Notes under the pieces: generated by a model
Database searches by the model: none
What the model was told of the DNA's origin: nothing
What the model saw: the letters and a program-made list of their open reading frames with translations, nothing else
Part shown: one piece after another, positions 33,921 to 38,727 of the stretch
Layout of the letters: every line of letters starts with the position of its first letter
Position numbering within the stretch: the first letter of the stretch is position 1
Made by a program: the position numbers and the translations under genes
Assembly: GCF_014041935.1 (NCBI RefSeq)
Contig: NZ_CP059491.1
Coordinates: 4,216,001 to 4,280,000, forward strand
DNA: 64,000 bases
Reading direction: 5' to 3'
Source: Gordonia jinghuaiqii
Lineage (GTDB): Bacteria > Actinomycetota > Actinomycetes > Mycobacteriales > Mycobacteriaceae

Positions 33921-35247
33921 TGTTCTGATCCGGGACATCGCTGACAGGTGATGTCTCGGGACATCGCTGACACCTGAGCAGGGCGTGGCCAGCATGGTTC
34001 ATGGCCCAGAAGGTGACGGTGATGGACGTTCGTGCAGCTACGGCGTTGGCGGGTGGAATCGAGAACGTGGCCGAGTTCTGTCGGGAGCAGAACATCAGCC
34101 GGCAGACGTTCTACAAGTGGCGGCGCCGCTTCGTCGCTGATGGGCTGGCCGGGCTCGAACCACGGTCGCGCCGACCGCACACAGAGCCGGGGCGTGTGGG
34201 TGGCGACGTCGAGGCGCTGGTGATCGCCACGCGGACGCGTTTGCAGTCCGCGGGCCTGGATCACGGGCCGCAGTCGATTGTGTGGACGTTGCAGCGTGAG
34301 GGTGCCGATTCGGTGCCCTCACGCTCAACCGTATGGCGAATTCTGCACCGGCACGGGCTAATTGTTGCCGAGCCGGCCAAACGGCCGAAGTCGTCGATGC
34401 GGCGGTTCTGCTACGAGCGCCCCAACGAGTTGTGGCAGTCGGACTGGACCGAGTGGCACCTCAGCGACGGCACCTCGGTAGCGATCGCGGGCACAATCGA
34501 TGACCACTCCCGGTATCTGTGCGCGCTGGCCCCCGACACCGGTGACGCCACCACCACACTGGTGTGGCAGGTGATGCTCGCCGGCATCACCGAATGTGGT
34601 GTTCCGTCGATGTCGTTGACTGACAACGGATTTGTGTACACCGGTAAGCATCGTGGATTCGAAACACCGCTGGAGAAGAATCTGCGTGCGCTGGGTACCC
34701 GGACCATCAACTCCCGCCCGTATCACCCACAGACCTGCGGCAAGATCGAGCGGTTCTGGCACACTCAAACGCTGGCTGAACACCCAACCGGCACCGGCGA
34801 CCGTCGGCGACCTCAACGAGATGCTCGACCGATTCCGCGGCTATTACAACCACAGTCGACCCCATCGTGCGCTACGTGGTGCGACTCCGGCCGAGGCGTT
34901 CCATGCCACCGAACACGCCCGGCCGGTCGACCGGCCGTTACCAGCACCAGTGTTCACCACCCGCCAACAGGTCAACCCCAAGCAAGGCAAAATCACTGTG
35001 GGCCCCTACTTCGTCCAGGTCGGCAACCGGTGGGGTGGACACACCCTCGACGCCATCTGCGACGACAACCACATCGTCATCTTCAGCGGCACCACCATTG
35101 TGCGTGAGTTCGACGCCGACCCCACTCGCCGCTACCAAGGCCAGCGTCGAACCCCCGGCACCCATGGCAAACGACAACCACTTCCGGCAGCATGACTGTC
35201 AGCGATGTCCCGAGACAAAAGTGTCAGCGATGACCCGAGACACCACA
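33921..35247 (+). mobile_element. IS481-family insertion sequence, about 1.33 kb
   Basis: The ends begin TGT and are related inverted repeats of about 50 bases. Each end carries two direct copies of a CGGGACATCGCTGACA-like core (33931-33946 and 33957-33972; complements near 35187-35211 and 35221-35237). The element is flanked by identical 15-base duplications and carries one DDE transposase gene, frameshifted. It sits between the DUF559 relic and lysS, within what looks like the shared terminator hairpin (GTAGCG at 33895-33900, CGCTAC at 35268-35273). Confidence 0.85.
34001..35195 (+). pseudogene. IS481-family transposase, frameshifted
   Basis: The first frame gives an HTH (IENVAEFCREQNISRQTFYKWRRRF), a helix-turn-helix-29-like segment and a DDE core: first Asp in WQSDWTEW, second in SLTDNGFVY and the Glu in GKIERFW. 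At about 34763 the frame must slip by one base to continue as LKRWLNTQPAPATVGDLNEM, then RFRGYYNHSRPHRALRG, ending at 35195. The unshifted frame runs on as Arg/Pro/His-rich nonsense to 35107. A two-base loss in ACTCTCAAA giving ACTCAAA would explain it. The protein is probably inactive unless frameshifting or a sequencing error is involved. ATG 34022 is an alternative start. Confidence 0.8.
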
Positions 35248-35282: not shown

Positions 35283-36866
35283 TCAGGTGCGGGGCTTCAC
35301 CAGTGGGAACAGGATCGTCTCGCGGATGCCGAGGCCGGTGAGAGCCATCAGCAGACGGTCGATACCCATGCCGGTGCCCGTGGTCGGTGGCATGCCGTAC
35401 TCCATCGCGGTGAGGAACTCCTCGTCGAGGACCATGGCCTCGTCGTCGCCGGCGGCCGCCAGTCGGGCCTGGTCGACGAAGCGCTCGCGCTGGATGACCG
35501 GGTCGATGAGCTCGGAGTAGCCGGTCGCCAGCTCGAAACCGCGCACGTACAGGTCCCACTTCTCTACGACGCCGGTGACCGAGCGGTGCGCGCGGACCAG
35601 CGGCGAGGTCTCGACCGGGAAGTCGCGGACGAACACCGGCTGGTCGAGCTTCTGACCGACCATGTGCTCCCACAGCTCTTCGACGAGCTTGCCGTGGCCG
35701 TAACCCTTGTCCTTCGGGATCTCCAGACCGACCCGCGCCGCGATGGCGAGCAGTTGCTCGACGCTGGTCTCGCCGTCGGCGCCTGCGGGGACGATGTCCT
35801 CGCCGAGCGCCTCCGACAGCGAGGGGTACATCTCGAGCGTGGTCCACTCACCCGACAGGTCGTAGGTGGAACCGTCGGGCATGGTCGGGGTCTGCGTACC
35901 GAGCGCCGCCTGCGAAACCTCTTGCACCAGTTCGCGGATCATACGAGCGGAGTCGTCGTAGGTGCCGTAGGCCTGGTAGGTCTCGAGCATCGCGAACTCG
36001 GGCGAATGGGTGGAGTCGGCGCCCTCGTTGCGGAAGTTGCGGTTGATCTCGAAGACCTGCTCGATGCCGCCCACCACGCACCGCTTGAGGAACAGTTCGG
36101 GCGCGATGCGCAGGAACAGGTCCATGTCGAAGGCGTTGGAGTGGGTCACGAACGGACGCGCCGCGGCACCGCCGTGCAGGGTCTGGAGCATCGGGGTCTC
36201 GACCTCGAGGAAGCCCCGACGGTCCAGCGCCGCACGGAGTTCGGCGATCACCTTGATCCTCGTGCGCGCGATGCTGCGCGCCTCGGGGCGCATGATGAGG
36301 TCGACGTAGCGCTGGCGGACCCGCGTCTCCTCGTTCATGTCCTTGTGCGCCACCGGCAACGGGCGCAACGACTTCGACGCCATCTGCCAGTCGTCGGCCA
36401 TGACCGACAGTTCGCCGGTGCGCGAGCTGATGACCTCTCCGGAGATGAACACGATGTCGCCGAGGTCCACGTCGGACTTCCAGCGGCCCAACGCTTCTTC
36501 GCCGACTCCGTTGAAGCTGACCATCGCCTGCAACTGGGTGCCGTCGCCCTCCTGGAGGGTGGCGAAGCACAGTTTGCCCTTGTTGCGCAGGAAGATCACG
36601 CGCCCGCTGACCCCGACATGCCGGCCGGTCTCGGTGCCCGCCTCGAGGTCGGGGTAGGCGGCCCGGATCTCGCCGAGGCTGTGGGTGCGGGGAATCGAGA
36701 CCGGGTACGCCTCGCGCCCCTCCGCCAGGATGCGCTCACGCTTCTCGCGGCGGATGCGCAGCTGCTCGGGGGTCTGCTCGTCGGCGACGTCGGTGTTCCG
36801 GCCGGGGGCGTCGGCGTTGCGGCCGGAGGCGTCGGTCGGGGCGCTGCTGGTCGGGCTGTCACTCAC
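35283..36866 (-). CDS. lysS: Lysyl-tRNA synthetase, class II
   Basis: About 527 residues. An N-terminal OB-fold anticodon domain ([26 protein letters not shown] near residue 85) precedes the class II core: motif 1 around [13 protein letters not shown], motif 2 [14 protein letters not shown] near 280 and motif 3 [15 protein letters not shown] at the C-terminus. It charges tRNA-Lys. GTG 36866 ([10 protein letters not shown]) is preferred because homologues begin near here; in-frame GTGs at 36869, 36875 and 36893 are possible. The first 35 residues are low-complexity. An IS element has landed just past its stop, splitting the likely terminator hairpin. Confidence 0.92.
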
Positions 36867-36960
36867 CACACGCACCCTATCGGTGCCGGTCACCGACTCC
36901 CAACTCGCCGCACGGGCTGTGACGGCGGAAACAGTCGGTGTTCGACAGGTCCGGCGCGGC

Positions 36961-37419
36961 TCAGCTCTCGTGCGCGGAGATGATGGCCAGTTCGCCGGGA
37001 CTGATGCGGCCGTTCACGCGCGCCTGACGCATCCGGCGGTGCCCGCCGACGACGAACACCGCGCCGTGAACACCGCGGGCCTGCAGATGCCAGGCGAGCC
37101 ATTCGGCCTCGTGGCCGTCCTCGCTCACCAGAATCCAGCGGGCGTCGGTGCTCGCGGTACGCAGCGCCTCCGACGTGCCGGGGGTGAGTCGGTCGAGCAC
37201 CTCGACGGCGTCGATGGCGAGCGCACCGAACAGCGCCCCGTCGAGGCTGCGTCGGCGATGCGAGCGGACGTCGACCGGGATGGCGCCCTCGGCCACCGCC
37301 GACGCGTAGTCGTCGACCTGCACAGACAGTGGAGCGGCCGGGGCCTGGGCAACGGTCGGGGCCGTCGCAGCAAAGACCTGGCCGGAGAAAACAGAAGAAG
37401 ACGCAACCGAAGCGGTCAT
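36961..37419 (-). CDS. Rhodanese-like protein lacking the catalytic cysteine
   Basis: 152 residues with an Ala/Ser/Val-rich 35-residue N-terminus and a rhodanese-type domain: [23 protein letters not shown] (the DVR...G.L.GA signature), then [32 protein letters not shown]. The active-site Cys normally at the start of the loop after the central strand is replaced by Ser (VSEDG), so sulfur transfer is unlikely; a sensing or binding role is possible. A GAGGA site precedes the ATG at 37419. A short Cys-rich reading frame (37487-37522) lies 67 bases upstream, suggesting cysteine-responsive control. Confidence 0.7.
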
Positions 37420-37486
37420 GAGAGGGAGTCCTCGAGTGATCGAAAATTGAGCAGGGAGCGCGAAGGAGGGCAGCCGCAGATGCGGA

Positions 37487-37522
37487 CTAGCCCTGACAAC
37501 ACTCCTGACAGCTCTTGATCAC
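37487..37522 (-). CDS. Cys-rich leader mini-ORF (VIKSCQECCQG)
   Basis: Eleven codons from GTG 37522 to TAG with three Cys codons, two adjacent, just before the rhodanese-like gene. On the minus strand a CATACT hexamer lies 7 bases before the GTG, the right distance for a leaderless transcript starting at the GTG. This matches the pattern of poly-cysteine leaderless attenuator ORFs described in mycobacteria. Function inferred. Confidence 0.55.
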   Translation of the reverse strand: MIKSCQECCQG

Positions 37523-37572
37523 GGCGACGAGTATGCCACAGGGTCGCGCACGGGACCAGACCTCGACGAAGG

Positions 37573-38727
37573 TCACACCGTCGGCGGTCCCCAGTTCTCC
37601 ACACGACGCAGCTCCGCGTCGACGACCTTGTCCGGGGTCAGCCGCATCGCCAGATCGCGGGCCCACACCGCCGGCGCCACGCGCAGCTGACCGACCCGGC
37701 CGAGGACCCCCGCGCGCCGCGCGATTCGCCGGGTGCGCGGCCGCCGAAGCCGGTCGTAGACGGCCGGCGCATCGCCGACACCGTCGGTGCCAGCACGGGC
37801 GAGGAGCGTCGTCAGCACGGCCGCATCCTCCATCGCCAGGTTCGCTCCCTGGCCGAGGTTCGGGGTCATCGCGTGCGCGGCATCGCCGACGAGCACGCAG
37901 CGACCGCCGATGAACGACGGCAAGGGGTGCGCCAGTTGCTCGATCGGGAGGTGCCCGACGGACTCCGGGTCGGTGGCGTCGAGCAGCTCGGCAATCGGCG
38001 CATGCCACCCCGAAAACTGTTGTCGCACCACGTCAAGGCCTCCCTCAAAGCCGCCCTCAGAACCCCCGCCCACGACGCCGTCGGAGACGGAGGCGAACCA
38101 GTAGACACATCCGTCGGGAAGTGGCGCGATGCCGAATCGTCGCCCGCGTCCCAAGGTCTCGCCGGCTGCGTCGAGCGCGACCGGCGTCGAGGTGACGGCC
38201 CGCCAGGCCGAGTAACCGCAGCGGGCCACCCCCGGGTCGTCGGCGATCGCGGCGCGCACCCTGCTCCGGAGACCGTCGGCTCCGACGACCAGGTCGCACT
38301 CCATGGAGGTGCCGTCGTCGAGCTGCACGGTCCTGTCGCGAACGCCGCTCACCCCGGTCCCGGTCCGGATCTCCACGGAGTTCGGGAGGGCGCCGAGCAA
38401 CGCCTCGTGCAGTTCGGTCCGGCGCACGACGCGCATCTCGGCGAGCGCCTCGCGATCGAAGCGGGTGAGCCATCGCCCGTCGGGGCGACGGGTTCCGCTC
38501 ACGATGGGCGCAACCGGCGCCGGCGCGTCGGGAACCACGGATCGCAGCCCGAGCACCTCCAGCGCACGCAGACCGTTGCCGAACAGGCTCAGCCCGGAAC
38601 CGCCGCCGCGCACCTCCGGCGACCGTTCGACGACCGTCACCTCCGCGCCGTTCCGTGCGACCCCAGCAGCGGTGCACAACCCTGCGATGCCCGCGCCGAC
38701 GATCACCACCCTCACGGGTTTCTCCAC
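37573..38727 (-). CDS. FAD-dependent aromatic-ring-hydroxylase-type monooxygenase
   Basis: 384 residues: N-terminal Rossmann VVIVGAGIAGLCTAAGVARNGAEVTVVERS (GxGxxG), CDLVVGADGLRSRVR (DG motif) near residue 150 and CVLVGDAAHAMTPNLGQGANLAMEDAAVLTTLL (GD motif) near residue 285. This is the salicylate-hydroxylase-like flavoprotein group, which uses NAD(P)H and O2. The frame starts at GTG 38727; a GTG at codon 6 is an alternative. The next gene upstream on this strand ends 85 bases away. Substrate unknown; nothing nearby names a pathway. Confidence 0.85.
   Translation of the reverse strand: MEKPVRVVIVGAGIAGLCTAAGVARNGAEVTVVERSPEVRGGGSGLSLFGNGLRALEVLGLRSVVPDAPAPVAPIVSGTRRPDGRWLTRFDREALAEMRVVRRTELHEALLGALPNSVEIRTGTGVSGVRDRTVQLDDGTSMECDLVVGADGLRSRVRAAIADDPGVARCGYSAWRAVTSTPVALDAAGETLGRGRRFGIAPLPDGCVYWFASVSDGVVGGGSEGGFEGGLDVVRQQFSGWHAPIAELLDATDPESVGHLPIEQLAHPLPSFIGGRCVLVGDAAHAMTPNLGQGANLAMEDAAVLTTLLARAGTDGVGDAPAVYDRLRRPRTRRIARRAGVLGRVGQLRVAPAVWARDLAMRLTPDKVVDAELRRVENWGPPTV

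Follow-up and report, generated by a model that had tools for sequence, protein, structure and literature searches.

In mycobacteria, short leaderless open reading frames (ORFs) with clustered Cys codons stand first in the transcript before sulfur-related genes (PMC4633059, excerpted text), and further precedent for such poly-Cys leaders is found in excerpts of PMC9094748, PMC9031893, and PMC13236596. Ribosome pausing on these leaders is proposed to free the downstream ribosome-binding site, and we propose attenuation of a similar kind for a leader in a 64,000-nt stretch of the Gordonia jinghuaiqii genome (contig NZ_CP059491.1, positions 4,216,001 to 4,280,000), hereafter called the window. 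Like the mycobacterial leaders, it has clustered Cys codons in a short, probably leaderless ORF before sulfur-related genes; a 5′ end at the start codon and a response to cysteine are two of the features that define the mycobacterial cases. The best reading, by analogy, is that the leader works as the mycobacterial poly-Cys leaders do, yet it lies at another locus, its peptide ends in ECC(R/Q)G-stop (in the window, one Cys codon and then a CC pair), it stands before either a dioxygenase with a rhodanese or a lone rhodanese that lacks the catalytic Cys, and its RNA takes another form, in that the start codon of the Gordonia mini-ORF would itself lie in the closing helix. It would represent a separate, sequence-defined branch of cysteine-codon attenuation at one syntenic place, recognizable by a short DNA pattern.

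In the literature searched for an ECC(R/Q)G leader, we recognized no paper that describes it; most subscription papers, including Canestrari 2020, which reportedly deals with mycobacterial poly-cysteine leaderless short ORFs, lay outside that search. The same genome holds another Cys-rich leaderless-type ORF, VGMQQRRECLLTRRRAIDFCRVADCCCRTRR (L039:737-832; G000:C1, about 4.184 Mb), before a two-domain rhodanese. This ORF resembles the cysA2 leader described for mycobacteria and, like the window mini-ORF, precedes a sulfurtransferase-like gene, but its peptide is unrelated and its stop lies about 220 nt from the gene. Counting Cys triplets over the whole genome was uninformative, with 582 matches against 1569 for the reversed control.

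A conserved cysteine-codon mini-ORF precedes a rhodanese-like gene in Gordonia

The initial annotation had described an 11-codon frame, VIKSCQECCQG, beginning 7 nt after a CATACT hexamer. Both are there on the minus strand, the mini-ORF from 37522 to 37487 and the hexamer from 37535 to 37530, and the strand reads CATACT-cgtcgcc-GTG ATC AAG AGC TGT CAG GAG TGT TGT CAG GGC TAG. The mini-ORF start is 103 nt and its stop 67 nt from the ATG of the rhodanese-like gene, whose Shine-Dalgarno sequence, GAGGA (37429..37433, minus strand), lies 14 nt before that ATG. The same frame or a variant of it is found in all 37 Gordonia loci, the window's own included, beginning 99-147 nt 5′ of the gene's ATG, and it starts with GTG in 35 loci and with ATG in two (L024 and L026). 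The Cys codons are arranged as C-x-x-C-C in 36 loci; in L037 (VIKSVLECCRR) the first is lost and the CC pair is kept. These codons are almost always TGT (36/36 at codon 5 among the loci with Cys there, 37/37 at codon 8, and 36/37 at codon 9), which is a minority Cys codon in the window, where it accounts for 25 of the 123 Cys codons in 42 long ORFs. The exact DNA pattern of the mini-ORF matched 29 records (genome contigs), every one of them (29/29) named Gordonia. The earlier proposal had been staked on the mini-ORF recurring at orthologous loci, and it does recur, in Gordonia and beyond; this conservation, together with the family-wide pattern described below, rules out a chance frame.

The CATACT hexamer is a putative −10 element. 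A hexamer with A at position 2 and T at position 6 lies exactly 7 nt 5′ of the mini-ORF start in 35 of the 37 Gordonia loci, and at six other offsets the same rule is satisfied in 0 to 9 of the 37. A scan of 36850-37750 for consensus sigma-70 promoters returned none, so the claim for the −10 hexamer rests on its conserved position. As a −35 element, TGGTCC (37553..37558, minus strand), 17 nt 5′ of the −10, is a weak candidate read from the sequence; across the 37 loci this place has the majority consensus ‘tgg.c’ and matches TTGACA at 2-4 of six positions at best. From the conserved hexamer 7 nt away, we infer that transcription starts at the GTG and that translation begins at the first base of the message, so that the mini-ORF is probably leaderless. 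Cysteine-responsive leader attenuators are recognized by clustered Cys codons in a short ORF, which are present here, and by a first place in the transcript, which the mini-ORF would take with such a start. The Cys-codon leader idea of the initial annotation is thus supported in part. The mini-ORF is conserved, and, as an addition to that idea, its RNA has the potential to pair with the region of the downstream ribosome-binding site; the search for a consensus promoter lent no support to a start at the first base.

The downstream gene encodes a rhodanese-fold protein without its catalytic cysteine

The gene behind the mini-ORF (36961..37419, minus strand) encodes a Cys-free protein of 152 aa, for which Pfam gave no match up to an E value of 0.1. 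AlphaFold2 predicted a confident fold (mean pLDDT 83.4), and a Foldseek search with this model ranked 2hhg first (E 1.1e-6), an entry whose title leaves its function unknown; rhodanese-domain proteins came next, with GlpE (1gmx) at rank 43. The model and its structural matches support a rhodanese fold. The protein is thus like the GlpE-type single-domain rhodaneses in fold but unlike them at the catalytic position: as had been suggested, a Ser (ILVSEDGHE) aligns with the rhodanese nucleophile, and of the 37 Gordonia proteins 34 have Ser at this position, 3 have Thr, and none has a catalytic Cys. The description of the rhodanese as cysteine-less applies to the window protein and to 35 of the 37 Gordonia proteins, but not to those of L013 and L023, which have one Cys each. 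A search of 36 further genomes from the genus found the protein in every one (36/36); its named relatives are Gordonia, with Jongsikchunia among the distant ones.

Downstream on the same strand lies a gene with PF00152 and PF01336 (35283..36893), which we take to be lysS, among class II synthetases; it is a conserved neighbor, found downstream in 32 of the 37 Gordonia loci. Upstream, also on the same strand, are an FAD_binding_3 gene (monooxygenase-like) and a hydrolase-like gene, and coaX follows farther upstream, beyond a TetR-like gene on the other strand; the hydrolase-like and TetR-like labels were assigned by eye from the translations. Elsewhere in the window, 34001-35195 resembles, by eye, a frame-shifted insertion sequence: a transposase-like ORF (34001-35107) is overlapped by another frame on the plus strand (34632-35195), which likely holds the C-terminal part.

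The Gordonia leader is predicted to fold into nested helices that close on the mini-ORF start codon

The window's own leader (91 nt) folds at −38.7 kcal/mol (z −4.49), and RNAalifold on the 37 Gordonia leaders predicted a set of nested helices, P1 to P5. The outermost, P1, pairs GUGAUC (37517..37522, minus strand), which includes the mini-ORF start codon, with GAUCAC (37436..37441), which ends 2 nt before GAGGA. When the partner hexamer was sought 12-30 nt before the gene's ATG, all six pairs were possible in 35 of the 37 loci (the exceptions are L027 and L032), compared with 6.6% of shuffled windows, and variants keep the pairing (AUGAUC-GAUCAU, and GUGAUG-CAUCAC in L031). By these counts, P1 is the firmest helix of the Gordonia leader. 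Farther in, P4 joins AGGGC in codons 10-11 (37490..37494) to GCCCU (37467..37471) and has two pairs changed on both sides, and the consensus fold places a hairpin, P5 (CCGCAucUGCGG, 37474..37485), directly after the stop codon.

Alignments A1 and A2 comprised 32 of the 37 Gordonia leaders (without L027-L030 and L036). In alignment A1, with 31 distinct sequences, 95% of cells pair, and six pairs carry changes on both sides, a number reached by 0 of 500 shuffles; in the shorter alignment A2, there are four such pairs, reached by 28 of 500 shuffles. RNAalifold on A2 fitted another inner pairing as well, and the minimum-energy fold of the window's leader uses other pairing that lacks P2, so that P2 (GAGC, 37511..37514, with its consensus partner GCUC at 37452-37449) and P3 (the GGAGUG region) are tentative. 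No Rfam family matched the leader in the window region up to an E value of 1; a sub-threshold microRNA match was discarded, lying on the opposite strand inside the gene. A covariance model of the Gordonia leaders (R2) found one copy in the window's genome and, among 298 genomes of the order, matched five Gordonia genomes plus one marginal case, indicating that R2 is blind to the leaders of other genera. The marginal match (L090:1501-1583, E 0.007) falls inside metK, in opposite orientation, in another genome of the family.

A structured leader between promoter and gene would also suit control at the level of transcription, in which stalling alters a terminator, an antiterminator, or Rho access and leaves translation aside; Mycobacterium tuberculosis ilvB1 is proposed to work in this way (PMC13236596, excerpted text). 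Attenuators of the trp/ilv type resemble the present leader in coupling regulatory codons in a leader ORF to RNA folding, but differ from it in that no hairpin followed by a U-tract (a T-run in the DNA) was found in the window leader. The sole terminator-like site (37418-37404) falls just inside the gene, with 0.3 such sites expected by chance. We therefore consider transcription attenuation improbable, the least likely of the readings weighed here.

The Gordonia leader belongs to a wider element between coaX and lysS

A relative of the rhodanese-like protein (E up to 1e-12) was detected in 177 of 301 genomes of the GTDB family, representing 24 of its 31 genera. At the loci taken, the order is coaX, the leader, then either a dioxygenase-like gene with a rhodanese gene or a rhodanese gene on its own, and then lysS. 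The last codons of the leader spell (Q)ECC(R/Q)G-stop, at times with slight variation. The DNA pattern GAGTGYTGYCRNGGNTRA, which misses leaders with a TAG stop (the window's own genome included), was detected in 171 of the 301 family genomes, spread over 20 of 31 genera, compared with 7 genomes for the reversed control (a count of rows). The Gordonia leader is a single branch of this more widespread element between coaX and lysS. Loci outside Gordonia were picked from the homologue and pattern matches and are not a random sample, those derived from the pattern containing the leader by construction. Among the 53 non-Gordonia leaders obtained in this way, all 106 codons of the CC pairs are TGT, and a −10-like site precedes 42, although the starts were chosen among those with such a site, so this count is not independent.

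Twenty-eight of the 53 leaders share an identical block of 21 nt, CAGGAGTGTTGTCGAGGCTGA, so that the DNA is conserved beyond the peptide. Such conservation might also be left behind if the leader had another role, as a structured RNA or through its peptide (e.g., in metal, thiol, or protein binding), with the Cys codons serving the peptide and not the sensing of a tRNA. The N-terminal residues, on the other hand, differ between genera, and what is kept is the CC pair toward the C terminus and the placement of the leader ahead of the gene; moreover, Rfam held no family for either of the two leaders scanned, that of the window and one of the dioxygenase type (L126). Another role of this kind strikes us as quite unlikely, if a shade less so than transcription attenuation.

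Pairing was analyzed in 27 compact leaders of the 53 (alignment A4), 12 of which were folded singly. Helix B, a hairpin GUCGAGGC-GCCUCGAC that encloses the stop codon, can form with 6 bp or more in all 27 (shuffles, 11%). Helix A would join the codons CAGGAGUGU to ACACUYCUG directly before the GGAG of the next gene, with an overlap of about one base; it reaches 6 bp or more in 21 of 27 (36% of shuffles do so) and is limited to 4-5 bp in the other 6. Seventeen of the 27 allow 7 bp or more, as do 14% of shuffles, and 10 allow 9 bp, a length found in 0.5% of shuffles. Single folds gave z values of −2.6 or lower for 10 of the 12, the exceptions being L131 (−1.30) and L200 (−1.00). Over the 53 leaders, GAGGC is accompanied by GCCUC or GCCUU in 31 of 32 (none was found in one), and the 14 leaders with GGGGC have GCCCC or GCCCU in 6 and GCCUC, which leaves a G-U pair, in 8. 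We read P4 of Gordonia as the stop-codon helix with a hairpin inserted, and P1 as the outer helix moved to the start codon; a rule common to both forms would then place the end of the outermost helix at the ribosome-binding site of the next gene.

A stalled ribosome is predicted to open the stretch before the Shine-Dalgarno sequence

We folded the 37 Gordonia leaders with an assumed ribosome footprint kept unpaired. The mean unpaired fraction of the 12 nt before the Shine-Dalgarno sequence was 0.37 in the free leader and rose to 0.67 with Cys5 in the A site and 0.64 with Cys8, compared with 0.48 for Cys9 and 0.45 for the stop codon. The core of the Shine-Dalgarno sequence, in contrast, was 0.22-0.23 unpaired in every state (free, 0.23), and in the folds shown it pairs with bases 3′ of itself. 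Simulated stalling thus opens the outer helix, which ends just short of the Shine-Dalgarno sequence, but does not lower the pairing of the core, so that the model predicts opening of the landing region and not of the core. A version in which stalling frees the core itself was dropped, since the folds do not relieve its predicted pairing. In the compact leaders of other genera, the core even became less open on stalling (0.27 unpaired when free versus 0.13-0.14 when stalled), and a ribosome at the stop codon opened helix A (0.72) much as ribosomes at the Cys codons did (0.75 and 0.73), so that in these leaders only dwell time could discriminate between them.

Taken together, these features make it probable, in our judgment, that the element is a cysteine-codon translational attenuator that is on when Cys-tRNA is short. 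Transcription would start at the GTG, and a ribosome would load on the 5′ end and translate VIKSCQECCQG. With plentiful Cys-tRNA it would finish quickly, the leader would close into its hairpin, and initiation at the rhodanese gene would be low; the closed outer helix, GUGAUC/GAUCAC, would end close to the Shine-Dalgarno sequence and would also hide the start of the mini-ORF. When Cys-tRNA is short, the ribosome would stay on the UGU codons, the outer helix could not form, the stretch before the Shine-Dalgarno sequence would remain single-stranded, and the gene would be translated. Elsewhere in the family, the leader occurs in a shorter version, ahead of a cysteine-dioxygenase-like gene and an intact rhodanese gene between coaX and lysS. 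This is the best-supported mechanism, with the mycobacterial precedent, the predicted RNA structures, and products without Cys pointing to it.

Loss of the dioxygenase gene accompanies loss of the catalytic cysteine

We classified 114 loci (37 from Gordonia and 77 others picked from the matches) by the presence of a dioxygenase gene, its absence meaning no tblastn match at an E value of 1e-4 in the stretch examined. The catalytic Cys of the rhodanese is kept in 34 of 35 loci with a dioxygenase (33 of 35 if L145 is scored as lacking it, since a fragment match gave no residue there; we score it as Cys on the stretch VIVCSEGYT) and is absent from 75 of 79 loci without one. The exceptions are a fusion with Ser (L142) and four loci without a dioxygenase match that keep the Cys (L137, L144, L147, and L158). 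In two of these, L144 and L158, the leader and the Cys-type rhodanese are retained with only ~270-290 nt where relatives have a dioxygenase gene of roughly 180-210 codons, an apparently recent loss of the dioxygenase. In Gordonia, as judged from the sequences, the dioxygenase is gone from the locus, the rhodanese is nearly always a Cys-free pseudo-enzyme, and the leader remains. In place of the Cys stands Ser, Thr, Gly, or Ala, a range that argues against replacement by a new nucleophile and makes persulfide chemistry at the catalytic position of the Cys-lacking rhodaneses unlikely; the role of sensor that the initial annotation raised for the Gordonia protein is conjectural. Some Cys-lacking loci have no such leader, namely five of genus g78, and two others (L140 and L141) have other Cys-rich ORFs.

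A sulfur-related gene follows the leader both here, to judge from the rhodanese fold, and in relatives, where a dioxygenase-like gene and a rhodanese gene follow it, and the dioxygenase was probably the ancestral target. The window's genome has a non-syntenic set of the same kind (L052:732-1794; G000:C1, about 3.612 Mb), in which a Cys-rich ORF (MVVV...MCMCCR) precedes a cysteine-dioxygenase-like gene and a Cys-type rhodanese. Pfam assigns this dioxygenase copy to cysteine dioxygenase type I (PF05995, 44.4 bits against a cut-off of 23), and it matches solved cysteine dioxygenases (best E 4.1e-14). The link between dioxygenase absence and loss of the catalytic Cys in several genera offers a natural series for the origin of a pseudo-enzyme under a regulator that is kept, and it raises the question of what role a rhodanese that has lost its Cys would have in cells short of cysteine.

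The direction of the response

A cysteine dioxygenase is normally wanted when cysteine is abundant, which is the opposite of the proposed direction. Because the probable ancestral target oxidizes cysteine, it counts against a leader that is on in shortage and raises the question of whether such an enzyme could serve under starvation. One way out is that the dioxygenase frees sulfur from thiols other than cysteine; the other is that re-initiation reverses the polarity. With reversed polarity, ribosomes that finish the mini-ORF would re-initiate ~40-70 nt downstream, and the gene would be on with abundant cysteine and its expression would drop on stalling, as suits an enzyme that degrades cysteine, such as the PF05995 copy. 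The spacing agrees with this, the stop-to-start distance being 39-42 nt in 6 of 8 dioxygenase-type leaders (48 and 57 nt in the other two) and up to ~70 nt in others, as does the finding that a ribosome at the stop codon also opens helix A. Proteins made during a shortage of an amino acid suit a low content of it, and, by raw Cys counts, the dioxygenases and Cys-less rhodaneses under the leader are mostly Cys-free: besides the Gordonia rhodaneses, 29 of 35 dioxygenases have no Cys (L127, L129, and L148 show one, with the start set inside the leader). Such products would suit synthesis in cysteine shortage; the intact rhodaneses of dioxygenase-type loci, which have 1 to 3 Cys, speak against it. 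The folds of the Gordonia leaders point the same way, as the stretch before the Shine-Dalgarno sequence is opened more by a stall at Cys5 or Cys8 than by a ribosome at the stop codon, and the mycobacterial precedent has the stall-on direction (PMC13236596, excerpted text). On balance, reverse polarity seems unlikely to us, though it is the most plausible of the alternatives, and an attenuator that is on when Cys-tRNA is short remains our preferred reading.

From this reading, we tentatively extend a fuller account, which is rather doubtful when all its parts are taken jointly. The element would be a family-wide cysteine-charging switch, in which a near-invariant 21-nt block both encodes Gln-Glu-Cys-Cys-Arg-Gly-stop and supplies helix strands near the ribosome-binding site. 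Originally, it would have governed a thiol dioxygenase and a rhodanese that scavenge sulfur from other thiols in cysteine shortage; it would have outlived the dioxygenase in several lineages and would now drive a rhodanese without its catalytic Cys. Because the closing helix would sequester the Gordonia start codon, a transcript may undergo little more than a single round of reading, during its synthesis, which raises the question of whether a leader can sense cysteine only one time on each message.

Diverged leaders and neighboring genera

The coaX-lysS interval looks different in some genera. In six of six genomes of genus g23, which is probably Mycobacterium, a search between coaX and lysS found neither a dioxygenase nor a rhodanese gene, and no Cys-rich ORF; coaX and lysS are spaced 97-171 nt apart in four genomes and 1.3-1.4 kb apart in two. 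In g84 and g90 (one genome each), a Cys-type rhodanese gene stands right after coaX, and no leader was found between them. No ECC leader was found at the five Cys-less rhodanese genes near lysS in genus g78 (L121, L122, and L151-L153); in L153, a short ORF without Cys, following a TATTAT box, precedes the Cys-less rhodanese. In the sister genus g85, a diverged leader, VSKSCQVCR-stop (L103:1414-1443), begins 7 nt after CAGACT and also precedes a Cys-less rhodanese. L140 and L141 carry their other Cys-rich leaderless-type ORFs (MLRCCC and MQSKARLRPALDFSCLCCC) 6 nt after CATACT, and their rhodaneses have Ser at the catalytic position. Finally, the dioxygenase and the rhodanese are apparently fused in L142, L143, and L157, where the fusion is preceded by Cys-rich ORFs (...CCLQKCCQR; VTHELITNAGPVGSVSVCRAQKCCLR).
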